From positions 1 to 35,596 of the forward strand of contig JAFZLL010000013.1 of the NCBI GenBank assembly GCA_017551505.1: a DNA stretch of 35,596 nucleotides, read 5' to 3'. The stretch comes from Eubacteriaceae bacterium (lineage in GTDB: Bacteria > Bacillota > Clostridia > Eubacteriales > Anaerofustaceae). Position 1 is the first letter of the stretch. Each line of letters starts with the position of its first letter. The position numbers and the translations under genes were made by a program. Below are positions 4,537 to 24,357 of this stretch, piece after piece. Below the pieces are notes generated by a model. It worked only from the letters and a program-made list of their open reading frames with translations. It had not been told where the DNA came from and ran no database searches.

Positions 4537-4593
4537 TTTTATGGATATACGTTCAATAAATAATTCAATTATTTGCAGCAACAGGAGGAAAGA

Positions 4594-5586
4594 ATGGCTA
4601 TCACAGCAAAAGAAAACTATCTGCGCATGCTCAAGGGAGAAATACCCGATCATGTACCGTCCAATGCCTTTGAGGATATGAACGGGCGTTTCAATGAAGA
4701 ACTGCTGACCCCTGCTTCAGCACCGGACGGACCAATCGTCACAAAACTGGGCGTTACATATGTGGGAAGCGCCGAACTCAATAACGGAGCCATGCCTGCT
4801 CCAGGCAAGAACCTTCTCGGGGAGGATATCTCCAACTGGAGAGACGTGATCCATATACCGGACATGAGCGGTTTCGACTGGGAAAAGTATTATACCGATA
4901 AGATCAAGGATATCGACCGTACGACCAAATGCCTGACGGTCGGAGGCGGCGACTATTTCCTCACCCTCGTATCATTTATGGGTTTTGAGAACCTGCTGCT
5001 CAATATGTACGAAAATCCCGATGAGATAATGGAGATGCTGGAATACGTGTCACAGTATTACATGCTCGTCCTGAAGCAGTCAGTATATTATGTCAAACCC
5101 GATATCATCTCCATCATGGACGACGATGCGGGAGATAAGGCGCCTTTCTTCAGCGCCGAGATGTATAAGAAATTCTTCAAACCCTATCATAAGAAGCACA
5201 CCGATATCGCCAAGGAGATCGGAGCTCCTGTTGCCCGCCATGACTGCGGTCTTTGCGAGTGCTTTATTCCGGACTGGGTAGATATCGGGATCAATTCCTG
5301 GAACCCCGCACAGGTACAGAACGACCTGGTAGGCATCAAAAAACGTTTCGGCAATAAAATAGCCATCGCCGGAGGCTGGGATAACGGCAAATACGACAGA
5401 TTTACCGATATGGATGAATACCGCGCGGCTTTGGAGAATTATGTCGATACGTTTGCTCCCGGCGGAGGGTTCGTTTATTCCGCCATGACGGGCTTCACCA
5501 ACCAGGACGAATTCACGCAGCAGCGCAGGGATATGATAAAGGACGTTTACTTCAACTACGCCTATAACTGGTATAAAACACACTGA
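4594..5586 (+). CDS. Uroporphyrinogen decarboxylase (URO-D) / MtaA-like methyltransferase family protein
   Basis: A 330-residue TIM-barrel protein of the URO-D superfamily. Family features include the opening helix with KENYLRMLKGEIPDHVP, the ISIMDDDAGDKAPFFSAEMYKKFFKPYHKK stretch in mid-protein (in pieces: MDDDAGDKAPF, then FFKPYHKK), and HDCGLCECFIPDWVDIGINS around residue 215, comparable to the H-x-C zinc motif of MtaA-type corrinoid methyltransferases. True HemE is unlikely: no other haem genes are nearby and the HemE N-terminal PVW-R motif is absent. The likely role is a methyltransferase or demethylase acting with a corrinoid protein encoded elsewhere; the substrate is unknown. ATG 4594 is chosen over 4573 because AGGAGGAAAG sits directly before it. 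It is monocistronic, with a palindrome downstream. Confidence 0.82.
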   Translation: MAITAKENYLRMLKGEIPDHVPSNAFEDMNGRFNEELLTPASAPDGPIVTKLGVTYVGSAELNNGAMPAPGKNLLGEDISNWRDVIHIPDMSGFDWEKYYTDKIKDIDRTTKCLTVGGGDYFLTLVSFMGFENLLLNMYENPDEIMEMLEYVSQYYMLVLKQSVYYVKPDIISIMDDDAGDKAPFFSAEMYKKFFKPYHKKHTDIAKEIGAPVARHDCGLCECFIPDWVDIGINSWNPAQVQNDLVGIKKRFGNKIAIAGGWDNGKYDRFTDMDEYRAALENYVDTFAPGGGFVYSAMTGFTNQDEFTQQRRDMIKDVYFNYAYNWYKTH

Positions 5587-7181: not shown

Positions 7182-7352
7182 ATTTCCGGCTCTTCCTTCT
7201 GCTATGATAAGTCAGCATCCGCGCTCCGCAGACAGTACCGGAGCCATGGCAGATCCGGTCATGAAAGTAACTGCGATCAGGTTGTTGCGCCTCCTCTTTC
7301 TCAGTCGCTTGCAGATGGTACCAAGAATATCAAATTTATGTATGTCTGCTTA
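7182..7352. other. Intergenic stretch, nothing recognised
   Basis: No supportable ORF or RNA gene between the terminator after the SecD-like gene and the purC promoter. Confidence 0.5.
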
Positions 7353-15161: not shown

Positions 15162-15167
15162 CAATGA

Positions 15168-15431
15168 AACTAATGATCAAGAGTAGTACCCGTTCATAAA
15201 GCGCATACAGAGAGACGTCTGCTGCTGAGAGGATGTCGGCGACGTGCACGGGGAATGGACTTGTGAAGGCGGACGAAAGAGCTGTAAGTAGAAACCGACG
15301 GGTTCCGCACCCGTTATCAGAGCGGCGGATATGATGGTATCCGGAAACGAGTGGGCGCATCAAAACGCCAAATTGGGTGGCACCGCAGGTCATGTCGATT
15401 ACCTGTCCCTTTGATAAGGGACAGGTTTTTT
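15168..15431 (+). promoter_or_regulatory. T-box riboswitch, predicted tryptophan-specific
   Basis: The leader has the conserved T-box element GGGTGGCACCGCAGG (15375-15389) and ends in a strong terminator (ACCTGTCCCTT-TGAT-AAGGGACAGGT, 15401-15425, then T6). In Stem I, GGGAA-TGG-AC offers TGG at 15256-15258 as specifier codon, i.e. Trp. The acceptor-binding bulge reads TGGC; its fourth base C would pair with discriminator G73, the base usual in bacterial tRNA-Trp. Uncharged tRNA-Trp would allow read-through into trpXYZ. T-box identity is certain; specificity rests on these two agreeing signs plus the genes downstream. Confidence 0.93.
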
Positions 15432-15459
15432 GTATTCAAGACAAAATCGGAGGTTTATT

Positions 15460-16413
15460 ATGAAAAAGTATTTATCAGTGGTCCTGGCGATCATTCTGGT
15501 CTTAACCTTTGCCGGATGTTCGGATGAGAAGAAGGCGCTTATAGGGGTCTGCCAGTACGGCGAACATCCCTCGCTCGACAACTGCAGGCTGGGATTCATC
15601 GAAGGATTGAAAGAAGCCGGTTTTTCAGAGGGAACAGATTATACCCTTGATTACCAGAACGGCGGCTTTGACGATGCCGTATGCACGCAGATAGCGCAGA
15701 GTTTCGCGGCCGAAGGATGTACGCTGATGGTTGGGGTTGCTACCAACGCCGCCCTGGCATGCTACGCAGCGTCCGAAGACAACGATACCCCCGTAGTCTT
15801 TGTCGCTGTCAGCGATCCTGAAGGCTCAAAGCTTACAAAGGGCAATATCACAGGCACCTGCGACAAACTGCCGGTTGCCGCCCAGCTGGAGCTAATCAGG
15901 AAGCTCCAGCCGGATGCGAAAACGATCGGCATAATCTACACAGTAAGCGAAACGAACTCGGTATCCACGATCAAGGAATATGAAAGGACAGCATCTGCCT
16001 ACGGTTTCAGCATCGAATCCGTAGGAGTCAGCGCCCAATCAGAGGTGACACTGGCCGTAGATACGCTTATCAATAAAGGCGTCGACTGTTTCAGCAACCT
16101 CACTGACAACAATGTCGTCGGTGTACTGGATTCCATTCTGGAAAAGACAGATGCTGCTTCGATCCCAGTGTACGGCAGCGAGATCGAACAGGTAAAGAAA
16201 GGCTGCATAGCCGGTGCCGGGATCGATTATTATGAGCTCGGAAAGCAGACCGGCAGACTTGCAGCAAGGATACTGAATGGAGAAAAGGCTGAAGATATCG
16301 ATTTCGAGACCATAGAGAACTACTCGGTTTACGTCAACCCCGAAAAGATCGCCGCACTGAATATCGATCTTCCGGATGATGTTGCCGCAAAGGCCGTAGA
16401 CGTCACCAAATAA
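15460..16413 (+). CDS. trpX: Tryptophan ABC transporter, substrate-binding lipoprotein
   Basis: 317 residues with a lipoprotein signal ending in LTFAGC (Cys20 would be lipidated). The rest is an ABC_sub_bind (PF04392-type) protein with GVCQYGEHPSLDNCRLGFIEG in pieces near residues 30-50, PVVFVAVSDPEGSKL about 117-131 and GIDYYELGKQTGRLAARIL near 255-273. This family includes TrpX, whose operon is controlled by Trp T-boxes in Firmicutes; the leader here predicts Trp. GGAGG precedes the ATG. The permease starts 5 bases after the stop. Substrate is inferred, not shown. Confidence 0.88.
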   Translation: MKKYLSVVLAIILVLTFAGCSDEKKALIGVCQYGEHPSLDNCRLGFIEGLKEAGFSEGTDYTLDYQNGGFDDAVCTQIAQSFAAEGCTLMVGVATNAALACYAASEDNDTPVVFVAVSDPEGSKLTKGNITGTCDKLPVAAQLELIRKLQPDAKTIGIIYTVSETNSVSTIKEYERTASAYGFSIESVGVSAQSEVTLAVDTLINKGVDCFSNLTDNNVVGVLDSILEKTDAASIPVYGSEIEQVKKGCIAGAGIDYYELGKQTGRLAARILNGEKAEDIDFETIENYSVYVNPEKIAALNIDLPDDVAAKAVDVTK

Positions 16414-16418
16414 TCGAA

Positions 16419-17306
16419 ATGGAAAGATTTGTAAACCTCGCAGTAAGTGTTCTGACCCAGGGGCTGATATACTCCATCCTTACCTACGGTGTTTATATCA
16501 CTTATAAGATACTGGATTTTCCCGACCTGACAGTGGACGGCAGCTTCCCATTGGGAGCTGCCATAACGGCGGTCCTGCTGGATAGAGGGATCGGCCCATG
16601 GATCGTACTGTTGACGGCGTCTGCCGCAGGGGCTTTTTCAGGTCTGGTGACCGGCATCATCCACGTTAAGTTCAAAGTAAGGGATCTGCTCGCTGGCATC
16701 ATTACGATGACAGCCCTTTTTTCCATCAACCTGCAGATCGCAGGTTCAAATTACTCAGTTGCGCGTACGACGCCGACGATCTTTACGGGCTTCCCTGCAG
16801 ACGCACTGTTGAGCAAAGCTCCTCTGTCGGTCAGAAAACTTGTGATTTCCCTCATTATAGCCGTCGCCATAAAGCTCCTGCTGGATCTTTATTTCAAGAC
16901 AAAAGCAGGGCTGCTGCTCATTGCCTCAGGGGATAATGAGACATTTGTGACTTCGCTGGCTGTCGATACGGGCAAGGTCAAAATCATGGGGATCGTCATA
17001 TCTGATGCCCTGGTAGCTCTCTGCGGATCGCTCGTCTGCCAGGAACAGCGGTCATTTTCGGCAACGATGGGCACCGGCCAGATGGTCTTCGCTCTGGCTG
17101 CAGTCATCATTGGTCTGACTCTGTTCAAAAAAGCCGGGTTCGTCAAAGGGACCACCTGCGCTCTCGCAGGCAGCGTCGTATATAAAGCGTGCATCCAGGT
17201 TGCGATACTGCTCGGTCTGCCCGCAAACCTGCTGAAGCTCGTCACTGCAGTGCTCTTCCTTGGCATACTCATAATCGGCAGGAGCAAGGAGGAGTCCAAT
17301 GCTTGA
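16419..17306 (+). CDS. trpY: Tryptophan ABC transporter, permease
   Basis: 295 residues, very hydrophobic, about eight to nine TM segments, of the branched-chain/sugar-type permease family (BPD_transp_2). Near the N-terminus is YKILDFPDLTVDGSFPLGAA, typical of TrpY-like permeases. It lies between the binding protein and ATPase genes, whose start overlaps its end by 8 bases. Confidence 0.9.
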   Translation: MERFVNLAVSVLTQGLIYSILTYGVYITYKILDFPDLTVDGSFPLGAAITAVLLDRGIGPWIVLLTASAAGAFSGLVTGIIHVKFKVRDLLAGIITMTALFSINLQIAGSNYSVARTTPTIFTGFPADALLSKAPLSVRKLVISLIIAVAIKLLLDLYFKTKAGLLLIASGDNETFVTSLAVDTGKVKIMGIVISDALVALCGSLVCQEQRSFSATMGTGQMVFALAAVIIGLTLFKKAGFVKGTTCALAGSVVYKACIQVAILLGLPANLLKLVTAVLFLGILIIGRSKEESNA

Positions 17307-18072
17307 AGTAAAGAACATCACGATGACCTACGACAAAGGCGGAGTGAACGAACTGACGATATTCAAGGATTTTTCGCTCACCATCAACGACGGGCAATTC
17401 CTGTCCGTCGTCGGAAGTAACGGCAGCGGGAAAACGACCCTTCTCAATATCATATGCGGTTCCCTCACCCCTCAGGAAGGCTCGGTCATCCTGAACGGCA
17501 ATGATATCAGCGCTGAAAAGGAATACCGGCGCAACAGACTCATCGGAAGAGTCTATCAGAATCCGTCTGTTGGCACGTGCCCGAACATGACTATCTCCGA
17601 GAATCTCGCGCTTGCGGATAATAAGGGCAGCCGATTCGGATTAAGACCGGCCTTTGACAAAAAGAAAGAAAGGGAATTCAGGGATCTCGTCGCTTCTTTG
17701 TCACTTGGCCTTGAAGATAAGATGGATATGAAGATGGGTTCCCTCTCGGGAGGCCAGAGACAGGCACTGTCATTGCTGATAGCCACTCTCAGGCCTATCG
17801 ACTTCCTGGTCCTGGATGAGCATACCGCAGCGCTTGATCCGGTCAATTCGGAGTTCATCATGGAGCTTACCAGGAAGACCGTGGAAAGAATGCACCTGAT
17901 GACTATTATGGTCACCCATAACCTGAGGCATGCAGTTGAATACGGGGACAGACTGGTCATGATGGACAAAGGCACGACCGTGCTCGACATTGACGGTGAA
18001 GCAAAGAAACACACCAGAGTCGAGGACGTATTGGGGATCTTCAACAGCATCAGTATAGAATGCGGAAATTAA
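17299..18072 (+). CDS. trpZ: Tryptophan ABC transporter, ATP-binding protein
   Basis: 257 residues. Walker A GSNGSGKTT (about 39-47), Q-loop VYQNPSVGTCPNMTI (about 88-102), signature LSGGQRQAL (about 152-160), Walker B FLVLDEHTAALDP (His replaces the usual Pro after DE) and switch His in MVTHNLRHA. It powers uptake through TrpY and overlaps trpY by 8 bases. Last gene of the T-box operon; no clear terminator follows it. Confidence 0.92.
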   Translation: MLEVKNITMTYDKGGVNELTIFKDFSLTINDGQFLSVVGSNGSGKTTLLNIICGSLTPQEGSVILNGNDISAEKEYRRNRLIGRVYQNPSVGTCPNMTISENLALADNKGSRFGLRPAFDKKKEREFRDLVASLSLGLEDKMDMKMGSLSGGQRQALSLLIATLRPIDFLVLDEHTAALDPVNSEFIMELTRKTVERMHLMTIMVTHNLRHAVEYGDRLVMMDKGTTVLDIDGEAKKHTRVEDVLGIFNSISIECGN

Positions 18073-18112: not shown

Positions 18113-18141
18113 TTGAACGCGAAAACAAACTTTGATAAAAT
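18113..18141 (+). promoter_or_regulatory. Promoter of the second URO-D-like gene
   Basis: TTGAAC (18113-18118), 17 bases, TAAAAT (18136-18141); AAGGGAG lies before the ATG at 18177. Confidence 0.6.
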
Positions 18142-18176: not shown

Positions 18177-19247
18177 ATGGGAAAAGAGAAGTTCAGTGAA
18201 GACGAGCTCGTTCATCAAAACGAGAGAGAAACACCGTATGGTACTTTTTACGATTTTTCAACACCTATATCATATAGGGATAATACACTGCTCCTTTATC
18301 AAGGAAAAACCCCGCTGTGGACGCCTTTTTCATCCGACTTCAACAGGATAATGTGCGACTGCGACCCGGAGAACCAGGCGAGGTCTAATCCTCCCGGAGG
18401 AAAAGGGGAAGACGGCTGGGGCGTGACCTGGGAATTCGTAGATTCCGCTCATGGAGCCATAGTGCGTCCCGGAAACCCGATGGTCACTGATATCAATAAA
18501 TGGGAAGAACAGGTCGCAAAGATCCCCGATGCCGATACATGGGACTGGGAGGGAACCGTTGAACGCCAGTACAAGAACCACGACCCAAATAAAGCGACTT
18601 ATGTTGCCATGCCGGGCTGCCTTTTTGAAAGGCTCATTGCGCTGTGCGACTTTGAGGATGCCATCGTCGCATTGATCGATGACGACCAGAAGGACGCCGT
18701 ACACCGCCTCTTCAGAGTCGTAACGGATAACCTGAAGAAATACTACAATAATATCAAGAAATACCTGAACGCAGATATCGCCAACTTCAATGACGACTGG
18801 GGCAGCCAGCAGAGACCTTTCTTCTCAAATGCCACTGCTAAAGAAATGCTGTTCCCCTATGTCAAGGAACTGGTCGATCACGTACACTCACTGGGAATGT
18901 ACTGGGATGACCACTGCTGCGGTCATGTCGAAGATCTTTTCGATACTCTCTTCATTCCGACCGGAATGGATTCCTGGGGCGGGCAGGAGCTCAATGACAA
19001 GAGAGCTCTCAAGGAGAAATACGGAGACAGATTCATATTCACAAGCGGACCTGTAGGACTTACACCCAACTCAACGGAAAAAGAAGTCGACGAGGCTGTC
19101 GAGGACTTCTTTGCTCATGAAGGCGCAGACAACCGCATCCTGTGCAGTCCTCCGATGGGCGCTCCTGCGAGCCTGAAGGAAAAGCTGTACATCGCAGGCA
19201 GAAAAAACTACGACAGACTGGTCGCGGAAGGCAAAGCCATACTTTGA
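18177..19247 (+). CDS. URO-D / MtaA-like methyltransferase family protein (paralogue A)
   Basis: 356 residues. URO-D-fold signs: GCLFERLIALCDFEDAI around 142, ALIDDDQKDAV around 160, FNDDWGSQQRPFFS around 202-215, then HCCGHVEDL near 242 (H-x-C, zinc-site-like) and MDSWGGQELNDKRALKEKYGD around 262-282. The same series of motifs recurs in the gene at 21038-22102, so the two are close paralogues; the protein at 4594-5586 is more distant. The family includes corrinoid-dependent methyltransferases and MtaA. The substrate is unknown and no corrinoid protein gene is in the window. Own promoter, strong hairpin after it. Confidence 0.82.
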   Translation: MGKEKFSEDELVHQNERETPYGTFYDFSTPISYRDNTLLLYQGKTPLWTPFSSDFNRIMCDCDPENQARSNPPGGKGEDGWGVTWEFVDSAHGAIVRPGNPMVTDINKWEEQVAKIPDADTWDWEGTVERQYKNHDPNKATYVAMPGCLFERLIALCDFEDAIVALIDDDQKDAVHRLFRVVTDNLKKYYNNIKKYLNADIANFNDDWGSQQRPFFSNATAKEMLFPYVKELVDHVHSLGMYWDDHCCGHVEDLFDTLFIPTGMDSWGGQELNDKRALKEKYGDRFIFTSGPVGLTPNSTEKEVDEAVEDFFAHEGADNRILCSPPMGAPASLKEKLYIAGRKNYDRLVAEGKAIL

Positions 19248-19271
19248 TATAATCTTTCAAATTGACAGTAA

Positions 19272-19306
19272 ACTCCTGTTCTCGCAAGAGAACAGGAGTA
19301 TTTGTT
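19272..19306 (+). terminator. Terminator of URO-D paralogue A
   Basis: ACTCCTGTTCTC-GCAA-GAGAACAGGAGT, a perfect 12-bp stem followed by ATTTGTT. Confidence 0.8.
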
Positions 19307-19335
19307 AATGGATGATATATGTTTTATATGCGCCG

Positions 19336-19773
19336 TCACGCATCTTCGTTCTGCAAAAGCACATCACTCAGCTTCTGCAGAGCTTTCCCGAAAACTCTCT
19401 TTTCATCATCGCTGAGCACCTCCACAGCCTTCAATGTCGATTTCACAACGTCATCGGTCAATATATCTTTGTAAGAATAATACTTATCGCTCAGACGCAG
19501 TTTATACTCCCTGCCGTCCTCCTCGGAGTTTTCCCTTGTAAGATAGCCTTTATTCACCAGAGAGTTGACCTTATAGGTCGCATTGGATTGTGAAATGCCG
19601 GTAAAGGATGCGAACTTGCCGATAGTAGGTGTTTTGAGCGATCGTATCACCTCCAGTGAGAATACCTCCATAGCTGTCAGGCTCCCTTCCCTCTCCTTGA
19701 CACGCTGGAAGACCTTACGGCAGAAATCCAGATTCAGAAGGTCCACCATTTTCGCTAAATATTCCTCTATCAT
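19336..19773 (-). CDS. MarR-family transcriptional regulator
   Basis: 145 residues with the MarR winged helix: SLEVIRSLKTPTIGKFASFTGISQSNATYKVNSLVNKGYL (about 39-78; recognition helix SQSNATYKVNSL) and a wing with NSEEDGREYKLRLSDK. The dimerisation helices are at both ends. GGAGCTG precedes the ATG. It is divergent from the flavoprotein-thioredoxin genes and lies between the two URO-D paralogues, so these are plausible targets. A palindrome in its own promoter suggests self-control. The ligand is unknown. Confidence 0.9.
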   Translation of the reverse strand: MIEEYLAKMVDLLNLDFCRKVFQRVKEREGSLTAMEVFSLEVIRSLKTPTIGKFASFTGISQSNATYKVNSLVNKGYLTRENSEEDGREYKLRLSDKYYSYKDILTDDVVKSTLKAVEVLSDDEKRVFGKALQKLSDVLLQNEDA

Positions 19774-19788
19774 ATCAGCTCCGATACT

Positions 19789-19837
19789 TCAAATATTTGA
19801 TATAAAAAAGTATAATTCATACAGAATATAGTGTCAA
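19789..19837 (-). promoter_or_regulatory. marR promoter with palindromic operator candidate
   Basis: On the minus strand TTGACA (19837-19832), 17 bases, TATACT (19814-19809). The perfect palindrome TCAAATATTTGA (19789-19800) lies just downstream of the predicted start, a position where a MarR dimer would block its own transcription. Confidence 0.6.
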
Positions 19838-19899
19838 GACCATGCAGTCGCGCATTATAATAAGATAGAATACAGCTATAAACGATCGGAGGCAGAGCC

Positions 19900-20463
19900 A
19901 TAAAAACCTGTATTTTGTGGGGTTCGTCAAGGAAAAACGGATACACGGGCAAAGCGCTGGATATGATACTCGCATCATCTCCCGATGATAATGAAGTCAG
20001 ATTATACCGCACCATCAAATGCAATGTAAAGGCATGCACCGCATGTGACAGCTGTGCGAACAATAAAGGACAATGCGTGCTGAAAGACGATATGCAGGCC
20101 ATCTACGAAGACATCATTCATAGCGACAAGCTCCTGTTTATCACACCTGTCTATTTCAGCGGATTCCCTTCCTCGCTCAAAGCCATTATCGACCGCTGTC
20201 AGATGTTCTATAACTATCCTGAATTGAAGGACACTCTTCCGACAAAACAGGCATATATCCTTGCCATAGGCGGCTCCAGACCCTATCCGGACCAGTTTAC
20301 CGGCATCGAATCCTCCCTGCGCTACCTGTTACGTTCGATCAACTGCAGGCTGGAAGCCAAGCTCTATTTTACGGGTACCGACTCGTTCAATGACCGTTTT
20401 GATGATGATAAGATCGGTCTTATCAGAGATTTTGCACTGAAAATGTTTACAAAAGGAGAATAA
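19900..20463 (+). CDS. NAD(P)H-dependent iron-sulfur flavoprotein (flavodoxin-like FMN reductase)
   Basis: About 187 residues. The first strand and FMN loop read KTCILWGSSRKNGYT; VKACTACDSCANNKGQC holds C-x2-C-x2-C-x6-C, the compact cluster motif of iron-sulfur flavoproteins (Isf). FITPVYFSGFPSSLKAIIDR is the conserved second flavin region. Start: GGAGG (19888-19892) is 7 bases before ATA at 19900, and reading from ATA gives the usual (M)KT-hydrophobic-GSSRKNG opening. No ATG/GTG/TTG lies at that spacing; TTG at 19915 would be 22 bases from the site and would cut off strand 1. I therefore call an AUA start, with TTG 19915 as alternative. Thioredoxin follows 2 bases after the stop, implying a redox pair. 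Confidence 0.85.
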   Translation: MKTCILWGSSRKNGYTGKALDMILASSPDDNEVRLYRTIKCNVKACTACDSCANNKGQCVLKDDMQAIYEDIIHSDKLLFITPVYFSGFPSSLKAIIDRCQMFYNYPELKDTLPTKQAYILAIGGSRPYPDQFTGIESSLRYLLRSINCRLEAKLYFTGTDSFNDRFDDDKIGLIRDFALKMFTKGE

Positions 20464-20465
20464 AA

Positions 20466-20780
20466 ATGGCAGTCAAGGTAGTTAATTCAGCAAATTTCAA
20501 AGATGAGGTATTATCCTCAGACATCCCTGTCCTGGTGGATTTTTACGCTGATTGGTGCGGCCCGTGCCGCCAGACAGCCCCGATAATTGAGGAGATTTCA
20601 AATCAGTTCGAGGGCAAGATCAAAGTCTGCAAGGTCAATGTCGACGAACAGAAGGAGCTTGCGGGCCGGTTCGGCATCATGTATATCCCCACCATCAAGG
20701 TCTTCAAAAACGGGGCAGAAGCTCTGTCCTCTGTAGGCGCGAAGAGCAGAGAAGACCTTCTGCAGATGCTCGGTCTATAG
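20466..20780 (+). CDS. trxA: Thioredoxin
   Basis: 104 residues, standard length. Active site W30-C-G-P-C-R within VDFYADWCGPCR; the cis-Pro loop is MYIPTIKVF around 73-81. AAAGGAGAA lies across the stop of the flavoprotein gene, so the two are cotranscribed. A disulfide reductase that may act with the flavoprotein or generally; no thioredoxin reductase gene is in the window. Confidence 0.96.
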   Translation: MAVKVVNSANFKDEVLSSDIPVLVDFYADWCGPCRQTAPIIEEISNQFEGKIKVCKVNVDEQKELAGRFGIMYIPTIKVFKNGAEALSSVGAKSREDLLQMLGL

Positions 20781-20900
20781 GACCGAAGAGACATCCCGGG
20801 TCTGCAGGCTACTCCGGCCTTACATCTGCGTCTGCTCATCAGGCACACAAAGACATCTGCAATACAGATCGGCGTTGTCATTCTTATAAACAGACATTTC

Positions 20901-20930
20901 AAGGCTTCCGGAATGGAAGCCTTTCGTTTT
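20901..20930 (+). terminator. Terminator of the flavoprotein-trxA operon
   Basis: AAGGCTTCC-GGAAT-GGAAGCCTT followed by TCGTTTT. The 120 bases between trxA and it hold nothing else recognised. Confidence 0.75.
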
Positions 20931-20991
20931 CCAAAAGTACTATTTGATCAACGGACTATCTGATGCATACTGAGTAAAAGTACTTACATAA

Positions 20992-21022
20992 ATATAAAAG
21001 CGGCAGGCTTTCCGCCTGCCGC
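20992..21022 (-). terminator. Terminator of URO-D paralogue B
   Basis: On the minus strand GCGGCAGGC-GGAAA-GCCTGCCGC followed by TTTTATATTT. Confidence 0.85.
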
Positions 21023-21037
21023 AGCTTAGAATCCTGC

Positions 21038-22102
21038 TTACTTTGAGAACTTCTTGCGGGAATATCTGTAGATCTCTTCCCTGTAAACGGGATCATTTAT
21101 GCCGGCATAGAAGCTGAGCATTGCCTTCGGGAACTTGTCCACGAATTCGTCAGCCATCCTGCGCTTGGTGTCATCGTCCGCTCCTTCCGGAATCGGGTCA
21201 GGGCATACGCCCAGCATTATCTTGTCCCCGTACTTTTCGTAAAGCATCTGCGTATCGTTCATAGCCATTCCGGTCCAGCTGTCCCAACCGCCCTTTACGA
21301 AGTTGCCGACCTGCTTCTCGAGCATTCCGCAGCTGTGAAGATCAGCCAGTTTACCCCTGGAATGGATCTTATCCGTGAGCTGTTTCATATACGGGACGAT
21401 CATCTCTTCAGCTACATCAGGAGCAAAGAAGCAGTCTTTCTGTGCGCCCCAGTCATCGTGTACGGTAAAGCCGGCAAGGTTGTCGCCGTAATAGTCGCAG
21501 CACTTATCTACGATGTCGCAGTACAGGTCCGTGCATTTTGCGAAGAATTCCTTGACTGCATCCTTCTGGTCGTCATCGATCATGGCTACTGCGGCCTGAG
21601 CGAAGTCCATCATGGAGATCAGTCTTTCGAACCAGCAGCCGTTCAGGAGCCAAAGGAAATTGGCGTTTCCGTTATTCAGCATTGCCTCGTTCGCCTTAGC
21701 GTCGCCTTCCCAATCCCAGGTGTTGATGTCAGGCCAGACGACCTTGTCATACCATTCATTTGCATCCTCGAGGAACGGATCCCCGGGCCTGACAATGGAT
21801 CCTCCGGCGGAAGGAACATAGACCCAGTCAAGACCGAACATGTCTTTTCCCGCATAGTTCGGATCATCAGGCGCTCCTGCTCCGATCACGAAATGACGAG
21901 CTACGTTATCGGGGATAACTGCCGGAGCGAACATGCCCTGGAAGCTGTCCGGCATCCATACGGGATCTCCCGCGTAAGCCCTGATCCAGTTTTCCTTATC
22001 GGAACAAGGTTTGTTGTAGACCTTCTGTGTTCCGTATCTGCTCTGGACCTCTTTGGCTTCGCTGATTTCCGTTTCATCATAGGGATATTTTTTCCCTGCC
22101 AT
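21038..22102 (-). CDS. URO-D / MtaA-like methyltransferase family protein (paralogue B)
   Basis: 354 residues, parallel to the protein at 18177-19247 along its length: GCWFERLISMMDFAQAAVAMIDDDQKDAV matches GCLFERLIALCDFEDAIVALIDDDQKDAV (quoted parts: FERLI, IDDDQKDAV), HDDWGAQKDCFF matches NDDWGSQQRPFF, and LHSCGML sits where HCCGHV is found. After the H-x-C pair I see no obvious third Cys near the C-terminus (SFYAGIND where paralogue A has ILCSPPMG), so metal ligation may differ. AAGGAGG precedes the ATG. Transcribed toward the thioredoxin gene from its own promoter. Substrate unknown. Confidence 0.82.
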   Translation of the reverse strand: MAGKKYPYDETEISEAKEVQSRYGTQKVYNKPCSDKENWIRAYAGDPVWMPDSFQGMFAPAVIPDNVARHFVIGAGAPDDPNYAGKDMFGLDWVYVPSAGGSIVRPGDPFLEDANEWYDKVVWPDINTWDWEGDAKANEAMLNNGNANFLWLLNGCWFERLISMMDFAQAAVAMIDDDQKDAVKEFFAKCTDLYCDIVDKCCDYYGDNLAGFTVHDDWGAQKDCFFAPDVAEEMIVPYMKQLTDKIHSRGKLADLHSCGMLEKQVGNFVKGGWDSWTGMAMNDTQMLYEKYGDKIMLGVCPDPIPEGADDDTKRRMADEFVDKFPKAMLSFYAGINDPVYREEIYRYSRKKFSK

Positions 22103-22150
22103 AGTTTAAATAACCTCCTTATTGAATTACATATTATATATCCGATATAT

Positions 22151-22179
22151 ATTATAATAGATTACGATCCGGTTGGCAA
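22151..22179 (-). promoter_or_regulatory. Promoter of URO-D paralogue B
   Basis: On the minus strand TTGCCA (22179-22174), 17 bases, TATAAT (22156-22151). Confidence 0.7.
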
Positions 22180-22281: not shown

Positions 22282-22500
22282 TTGAACAGCCGCTTCGTAT
22301 ATGGTAAAAATAAGTATCGGGTTTATCCACCGATACGCAGTCTTTAACCGCGTCTCAGGTAAGTGAGCTTAAGAACTCCGCAGTACCTTGCTACCGTAAA
22401 GCCGGAAAACTATTCGCGTTGACTGCAAACGGCTCAAGGTGTTGCAAGTATTTACAAGTGCTTTATAAATACGCGCATCTAGCTGAGGATGCGTTTTTTT
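22282..22500 (+). ncRNA. Candidate structured RNA or riboswitch-like leader, unassigned
   Basis: In a 414-base gene-free stretch I see a promoter (TTGAAC 22282-22287, 17 bases, TGG-TAAAAA with the -10 at 22305-22310) followed by a series of stems and a terminator. Stem 1: GTATCGG/CCGATAC (22314-22320 / 22330-22336). Stem 2: ACCTTG plus AGCCG on the 5' side (22385-22390, 22400-22404) against the unbroken CGGCT-CAAGGT (22430-22440), i.e. 11 pairs with a 9-base bulge. Stem 3: GTATTTA/TAAATAC (22448-22472). Terminator: CGCATC/GATGCG (22474-22493) plus T7. I cannot match it to 6S, SRP, RNase P, tmRNA, T-box, TPP or cobalamin RNAs. It could be a stand-alone small RNA or an attenuating leader of the Cys-rich gene at 22614. 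A further hairpin (CGGAAGCC/GGCTTCCG, 22545-22564) lies between. Confidence 0.5.
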
Positions 22501-23568: not shown

Positions 23569-24219
23569 TTATGCACGTTCTGTGTTTTTTATCCTGTCGC
23601 CGATCGTGAAGACCGCTTCCCTGAAAGGCCTGACTGCCAGGGCCAATGCTGTAAGCAGATACTCAGCTCCCATAAAGCTCCCGTTGTACACCAGCGACCA
23701 CAATACGGCACCATAGGCCTCAGGGGCCCATTCCGCAAAGAACAGTACTCCCGACAGGAAGGAACAGAAAAGCCTGCCAAGGACGCCTAAGGTGAACCCT
23801 GCGATAAGATCCCTGTAGGTCCTGCCGTGAAATGCAGCACCGGAAAGTCCGAGCATGCCGTACGCGATCGGATAGTCCAGGAGGCCCTGAAGCGGGGAGA
23901 TCACATACGGAGAGACTATCATATTCAGCAGTCCGAAGGCCATTCCGGTCATTACTCCCTGGCGTGTTCCGAACCAGTAGCCTATCACGCTCACAGCGAA
24001 CATACTGAAAGGTGTCACGCTTCCGCCCTGGGGCATGCGGAAGATTATGATATTATTCAACACAAAAGCCAGGGCGATGGAAACTGCACTACATGCGAGT
24101 GCTGTCGCGCCTTGTTTTTTGTTGCCTGTCATTAGACTGGATACGACAAGCAGCCCGCAGAGCAGTGCCCCGACGGCGACTTTCCCTAAAATACTGTCAA
24201 AAAAAGCCTGGTAATCCAT
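23569..24219 (-). CDS. thiT: Thiamine ECF transporter S component ThiT
   Basis: 216 residues, about six TM segments; the length is near the family norm. Motifs seen: ALAFVLNNIIIFRMPQGGSVTPFSM (in part: RMPQGGSVTPFSM, the conserved ThiT stretch) near 50-75, and GYWFGTRQGVMTGMAFGLLN after it. ThiT binds thiamine and docks on the shared ECF module. The start at 24219 follows AAAGGAGG; a longer frame starting at 24312 would run through the TPP riboswitch and is rejected. Control by the TPP riboswitch upstream supports the assignment. Confidence 0.95.
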   Translation of the reverse strand: MDYQAFFDSILGKVAVGALLCGLLVVSSLMTGNKKQGATALACSAVSIALAFVLNNIIIFRMPQGGSVTPFSMFAVSVIGYWFGTRQGVMTGMAFGLLNMIVSPYVISPLQGLLDYPIAYGMLGLSGAAFHGRTYRDLIAGFTLGVLGRLFCSFLSGVLFFAEWAPEAYGAVLWSLVYNGSFMGAEYLLTALALAVRPFREAVFTIGDRIKNTERA

Positions 24220-24228
24220 AAAAAAACC

Positions 24229-24330
24229 TCCTTTATGAAAGGAAGCAAAATAAAAATGCTTCCCTACGACGGTACTGACCGTATCAGGTAATAAGGGTCT
24301 AATTCTCAGCACAACGGCTCCCCTAGCATT
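24229..24330 (-). promoter_or_regulatory. TPP (THI-box) riboswitch controlling thiT
   Basis: Read on the minus strand: P1 AATGCT/AGCATT (24330-24325 / 24260-24255), AGGGGAGCC, GCTGAGA, GACCCTT, ACCTGAT and GTACCGTCGTAGGGAA, the full TPP core. Downstream GGAAGCA/TGCTTCC (24263-24257 / 24247-24241) competes with P1. TCCTTT-CAT-AAAGGA (24243-24229) can hide the AAAGGAGG ribosome site and competes with that hairpin. This fits translational control: with TPP, P1 forms and the ribosome site is masked. The -10 TATAAT is at 24339-24334. Confidence 0.95.
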
Positions 24331-24357
24331 ATGATTATATCTTAAATTCTCAGTTTT

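Follow-up and report, generated by a model that had tools for sequence, protein, structure and literature searches.

The 35,596-nucleotide stretch of DNA analysed here (contig JAFZLL010000013.1 of the Eubacteriaceae bacterium assembly GCA_017551505.1; hereafter the window) carries two genes of the uroporphyrinogen decarboxylase (UroD) superfamily, A and B, that flank a MarR-family regulator gene, an iron-sulfur flavoprotein (Isf-type) gene and a thioredoxin gene. A and B are probably substrate-specific methyltransferases I (MTI) of a shared corrinoid demethylation hub, from which the regulator and the redox pair probably stand apart. All five genes were found where the initial annotation of this DNA had placed them, together with a third, more distant relative, gene C. 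The three relatives are:

18177..19247, + strand: gene A, UroD-superfamily corrinoid MTI-like protein, 356 aa, with H246-x-C248 and D206-D207
21038..22102, - strand: gene B, UroD-superfamily corrinoid MTI-like protein, 354 aa, with H256-x-C258 and D216-D217
4594..5586, + strand: gene C, more distant UroD-superfamily relative from another clade, 330 aa

A and B align from end to end with 35% identity (E=7e-62), and C is 27% identical to A and 24% identical to B; its likely start, the ATG at 4594, is placed by a Shine-Dalgarno (SD) sequence, AGGAG, at 4583-4587. The H-x-C site ascribed to both outer genes is present in each. Conservation was counted across 94 aligned homologues, in which H246 of A is invariant (94/94) and C248 is kept in 88, the remaining six having Asp. 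D207 is likewise invariant and D206 nearly so (Glu in one of the 94); with at most one exception per position, P117, D206, D207 and H246 are kept throughout. Besides C248, no Cys column reaches 30% across the alignment. UroD-type S-methyltransferases use a His-Cys-Cys site, in which O-methyltransferases swap one or both Cys (PMC10418091), so the missing conserved third Cys leans towards O-demethylation without proving it. The catalytic Asp of HemE (FSDIL) falls in a gap in 94/94 homologues, and both residues of H-x-C are missing from HemE. Scores against the Pfam URO-D model were 17.9 bits (A) and 18.6 bits (B), both below the cut-off of 23.9, and those against the MtaA-type NCBIfam models (TIGR01463 mtaA_cmuA; NF004889) were 15.1 bits for A against a cut-off of 235.4 and 12.6 for B against 244. 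A and B are most likely of the corrinoid MTI type within the UroD superfamily, on the MtaA-like branch rather than that of HemE.

The fold of A points the same way. An AlphaFold model built from four sequences, of low confidence (pLDDT 57.6), had as its top Foldseek matches MtaA of Methanosarcina mazei (4AY7/4AY8) and UroD (E 7e-6), with MtaA first. Comparison by VIA gave Z 14.5 for UroD (root-mean-square deviation (rmsd) 6.4 over 247 residues) and Z 11.3 for MtaA (rmsd 6.2 over 246 residues), with the next fold class well below both at Z 8. As far as so poor a model can indicate, A appears to adopt the UroD/MtaA TIM-barrel fold.

In the maximum-likelihood tree, A and B lie in different parts of one supported clade (71 rows, 100/98), A within an 11-member clade and B next to its orthologue from a metagenome-assembled Eubacteriaceae genome of the same genus (the genus-mate), which also holds an orthologue of A. 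C belongs to a separate clade with four more paralogues from its own genome, and HemE forms a very long outgroup branch. The nearest own-genome paralogues lie on other contigs, that of A on C59 (54-56% identity) and those of B on C45 (45-46%). A and B had been described as close paralogues; their homology stands over the full length, whereas their closeness does not, and their separate positions in the tree mark them as old paralogues and not a recent duplication pair. An orthologue group 47-49% identical to B occurs as a stand-alone gene in many relatives.

Members of the A/B clade adjoin, or lie within ~4 kb of, genes for a corrinoid protein (CP) and a methyltransferase II (MTII) in the apparently Acetobacterium-like genomes G028, G037 and G045 and in G004, a genome of the same bacterial family, the last with the gene row MTI, CbiD, MTII, CP. 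The CPs concerned are 65-69% identical to a CP encoded on contig C18 of the genome studied here, and a further family member in G047 is likewise near a CP and an MTII. This co-location in relatives is what places A and B among the MTIs. The wider comparison also suggests that lone MTI genes served by a distant CP are the usual arrangement within this order.

The window is contig C6 of a 1.56-Mb genome in 63 contigs (G000), estimated to be 96.6% complete, and the gene counts that follow rest on searches of its contigs. A family profile search recovered 17 intact UroD-type MTI members. Their partner genes, for CP, MTII and activator, lie in the genome outside the window. The earlier remark that corrinoid protein and haem genes are lacking thus holds for the window and, as regards the corrinoid genes, fails for the genome. 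There are at least three CP genes, namely an MtbC/MtgC-type gene on C18 in at least two near-identical copies and another on C38. The C18 gene reaches the start of its contig, and each of contigs C2, C47 and C21 ends in a piece with 94-100% identity to this gene; the assembly is broken at these CP copies, which sit at four contig ends (L145, L143, L155, L154) and are 93.9-100% identical at the DNA level. The pieces imply at least two copies, and the number of CP genes is therefore a minimum. Two methyl-tetrahydrofolate (THF):corrinoid methyltransferases, the MTII (339 and 317 bits against NF005719, cut-off 259), are encoded on C16 and C17, and one RACo/AcsV-type activator is encoded on C17 next to metF, folD and fchA. 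A lone, divergent acetyl-CoA synthase (ACS)-like gene lies on C26 (L147, 7268-9364); no gene for carbon monoxide dehydrogenase (CODH) or a corrinoid iron-sulfur protein could be recognised within the surrounding 19 kb.

By gene ratios only, the genome thus has 17 MTI to at least three CP genes, two MTII and one RACo. Ratios of MTI to recognisable CP genes in the family are of the same kind: 15:2 in G001, 30:2 in G004, 61:3 in G005, 18:2 in G006, 36:1 in G010 and 13:2 in G011. Across 13 family genomes, RACo is present in all eight with at least four MTIs and absent from four of the five with none, a co-occurrence that is suggestive only, since the genomes are related. It seems to us an evenly balanced question whether this amounts to a family-wide hub and spokes of the UroD superfamily, in which each genome of 1.6-2.7 Mb would have 13 to 61 substrate-specific MTIs, most of them stand-alone and some from uncharacterised clades such as those of A and B, all dependent on one to three (partly duplicated, near-identical) CPs. 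The G005 genome, at 2.7 Mb, has 61 UroD-type methyltransferase matches and only three recognisable CPs of this type.

In the proposed scheme, each MTI gene would be expressed from its own promoter, and A and B would each bind a different methylated substrate, with methoxylated aromatics as the likeliest class. Either enzyme would transfer the methyl group to the Co(I) form of the corrinoid protein (substrate-CH3 + Co(I)-CP -> CH3-Co(III)-CP), the carrier being the shared MtbC/MtgC-type protein of C18 and its near-identical copy, possibly also that of C38. An MTII (C16 or C17) would then move the methyl group from CP to THF, and methyl-THF would be oxidised through the methyl branch (MetF, FolD and FchA, encoded on C17) or passed to the ACS-like protein. 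Corrinoid oxidised to Co(II) would be re-reduced by the RACo/AcsV-type protein of C17. Since the genome has genes for CP, activator and MTII at other places, no local redox partner would be needed.

A redox pair and a regulator do lie between the outer genes, as the initial annotation had it. The further features of the locus, of which the promoter-like, terminator-like and overlapping divergent promoter sites come from a signal scan, are:

18113..18141, + strand: promoter-like site of A (TTGAAC-17-TAAAAT)
19272..19299, + strand: terminator-like hairpin 3' of A
19336..19773, - strand: MarR-family regulator gene (Pfam MarR 35.7 bits, over the cut-off)
19788..19837, both strands: overlapping divergent promoters of MarR (-) and Isf-Trx (+)
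19789-19800: palindrome TCAAATATTTGA, candidate MarR operator, overlapping the MarR and Isf promoters
19900..20463, + strand: Isf-type flavoprotein gene (FMN_red fold, CX2CX2CX6C)
20466..20780, + strand: thioredoxin (Trx) gene, 104 aa, CGPC (Pfam 112 bits)
20901..20923, + strand: terminator-like hairpin 3' of Isf-Trx
21000..21022, - strand: terminator-like hairpin 3' of B
22135..22179, - strand: promoter-like site of B (TTGCCA-17-TATAAT)
22135-22151: palindrome TATATATCCGATATATA at the promoter-like site of B, unique among the own-genome stretches searched

The scan returned 16 promoter-like sites against 5.8 in shuffled sequence and 14 terminator-like sites against 3.7. A, MarR, Isf-Trx and B each have a promoter-like site of their own, and A, Isf-Trx and B a terminator-like site, so that on these predicted signals they look like four transcription units. 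The position of TCAAATATTTGA is as expected for the candidate operator of an autoregulating MarR. This palindrome was not found at A or B, and neither the MarR nor the B operator motif was found at other paralogues in the own-genome stretches searched. MarR-Isf-Trx is probably a separate unit, redox- or stress-related, that is linked to A within the genus. A second thioredoxin gene lies on C46.

The Isf gene has an unusual beginning. No ATG, GTG or TTG occurs between the in-frame stop TAA at 19879-19881 and the first beta-strand, and the apparent start is ATA (AUA) at 19900, behind a strong SD sequence, GGAGG, at 19888. The genus-mate gene (L046, ~7205-7230) has ATT-ATA at the same place, so that an AUA (or AUU) start codon appears to be conserved.

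The initial annotation had proposed that the locus might be a small module for methyl transfer or demethylation, and a methyl-transfer role for the outer genes is retained here as most likely. It is unlikely, however, that all five genes together make up one such module, with Isf-Trx as a dedicated electron supply and MarR as its regulator. In its favour, the genus-mate keeps the order A, MarR, Isf, Trx (76%, 72%, 52% and 59% identity), so that they may have a looser functional link to A, and in G004 a thioredoxin gene (47% to that of the window) lies between two A-type paralogues, so that some link between A and thioredoxin may exist. The full gene order in the genus-mate is nevertheless trp-type transporter, A, recQ, MarR, Isf, Trx, with recQ inserted between A and MarR, and the B orthologue (83%) is on a different contig among other neighbours. 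Neither MarR, Isf nor Trx was seen at the A-clade loci of G006, G010 and G011. The five-gene neighbourhood is thus conserved in part only, the promoter-like and terminator-like signals are separate, the MarR palindrome is confined to the MarR and Isf promoters, and a RACo-type activator is already encoded in the genome; these observations lend no support to a module that is complete in itself, down to a dedicated redox partner and regulator.

It is doubtful, though less so than the single module, that A and B act on other substrates, as S- or Se-methyltransferases (of the soluble coenzyme M (CoM) methyltransferase or Mlp kind) or as haloalkane demethylases (of the CmuA or CdmB kind) instead of O-demethylases. 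They keep H-x-C as in MtaA and weakly match TIGR01463 and the MtaA/MtbA model, and A. dehalogenans has in CdmB an MTI of the UroD type that acts on haloalkanes (PMC13222342). Those matches reach, however, only ~15 bits (cut-off 235) and 13 bits (cut-off 244), the 94 homologues do not have the third Cys as a conserved feature, nothing related to sulfur or selenium was noticed among the neighbouring genes, and 17 divergent paralogues fit many substrates better than one thiol or halomethane. A plasmid search for CmuA-like references gave distant matches only. That A and B are uroporphyrinogen decarboxylases (HemE), or derived haem or sirohaem enzymes, is very improbable: the superfamily fold is common to both, but the sub-threshold URO-D scores, the absent catalytic Asp, the lack of H-x-C in HemE, its long outgroup branch and the presence of 17 copies in one genome all argue otherwise. 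Several points do weigh against A and B being O-demethylating MTIs of a shared hub. Neither the family profile nor another paralogue, used as queries, matched any PDB sequence, and OdmB, VdmB, MtvB, MtoB and CdmB are likened to A and B by description, not by sequence; CdmB itself shows that halomethanes can serve a UroD-type MTI in place of methoxyaromatics (PMC13222342). Moreover, RACo in this genus is similar to AcsV, which activates CODH/ACS, and the genome lacks the other RACo type, with higher scores, that occurs in relatives.

Several known systems come close to the one proposed here. The MtvB, OdmB, VdmB, MtoB and CdmB systems likewise combine a UroD TIM-barrel MTI with a CP of ~210 aa, an MTII and a RACo-type activator, and their hosts are paralogue-rich acetogens, A. 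dehalogenans having 26 methyltransferase systems (PMC13222342). The methyl route from MTI through CP to THF, with RACo repairing Co(II), is established for MtoB/MtoC/MtoA (PMC8630106) and for CdmB/CdmC (PMC13222342). Unlike in those systems, the MTI genes here are mostly orphans far from the CP gene, which they strongly outnumber. A precedent for carrier sharing is the quaternary amine system of Eubacterium limosum, in which three MttB proteins methylate one MtqC, with MtqA and RamQ in the methyl-THF oxidation cluster (PMC8604678); it has in common with the scheme proposed here the many substrate-specific MTIs on one carrier, and with the present genome the placing of MTII and activator in a methyl-THF cluster (compare C17). 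Its MTIs are of the MttB family, however, whereas those here are of the UroD type, and carrier sharing is demonstrated there and would only be expected here. The MtaA/MtbA and Mlp clusters have the superfamily and H-x-C in common with A and B, and MtaA was the top Foldseek match, but A and B differ in the third Cys ligand, fall far below the family cut-offs and have no Mlp-type operon. The O-demethylase clusters of Desulfitobacterium hafniense resemble the present case in corrinoid demethylation and many copies, but include about 20 CP (odmA) homologues (PMC3306737), against a handful of CP genes here. In E. callanderi, the O-demethylase systems are six sets of four proteins (PMC12915777), in contrast to the shared-carrier layout proposed for A and B.

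Several other elements lie near the locus. A T-box leader at 15164-15413, with an apparent UGG (Trp) specifier, precedes a TrpX-type ABC transporter (15430-18072), and in both species of the genus this transporter is directly upstream of A. The possibility that it imports the substrate of A was rejected: the UGG specifier, together with a TrpX score of 234 bits (cut-off 390), speaks for tryptophan uptake, and the promoter-like site of A also counters the linkage. Beyond B, a gene for a cysteine-rich small protein (PF04071; 22614-22916, +) has a leader that looks structured. An AdoCbl-II match at 22347-22420, upstream of a zf-like gene, was rejected as a cobalamin riboswitch (18.3 bits, cut-off 36.5). 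A thiamine pyrophosphate (TPP) riboswitch at 24244-24334 (-) precedes the gene of a membrane protein (23569-24312) whose likely role is that of a thiamine-type transporter.

As a gene pair, A and B are ordinary: two of many MTI genes happen to flank a MarR-linked redox pair. As a view of a large, carrier-poor MTI repertoire, they are a variant on known chemistry, and the proposed carrier sharing departs from known cases in its UroD-superfamily enzymes and in the extreme ratio of MTI to CP. MTIs decide which methylated compounds anaerobes demethylate, among them lignin aromatics and the methoxy groups of diet and drugs. Many divergent UroD-type MTIs combined with few carriers would give a large set of candidate demethylases open to screening with one CP and one activator, and such genomes would test how one carrier recognises many partners.

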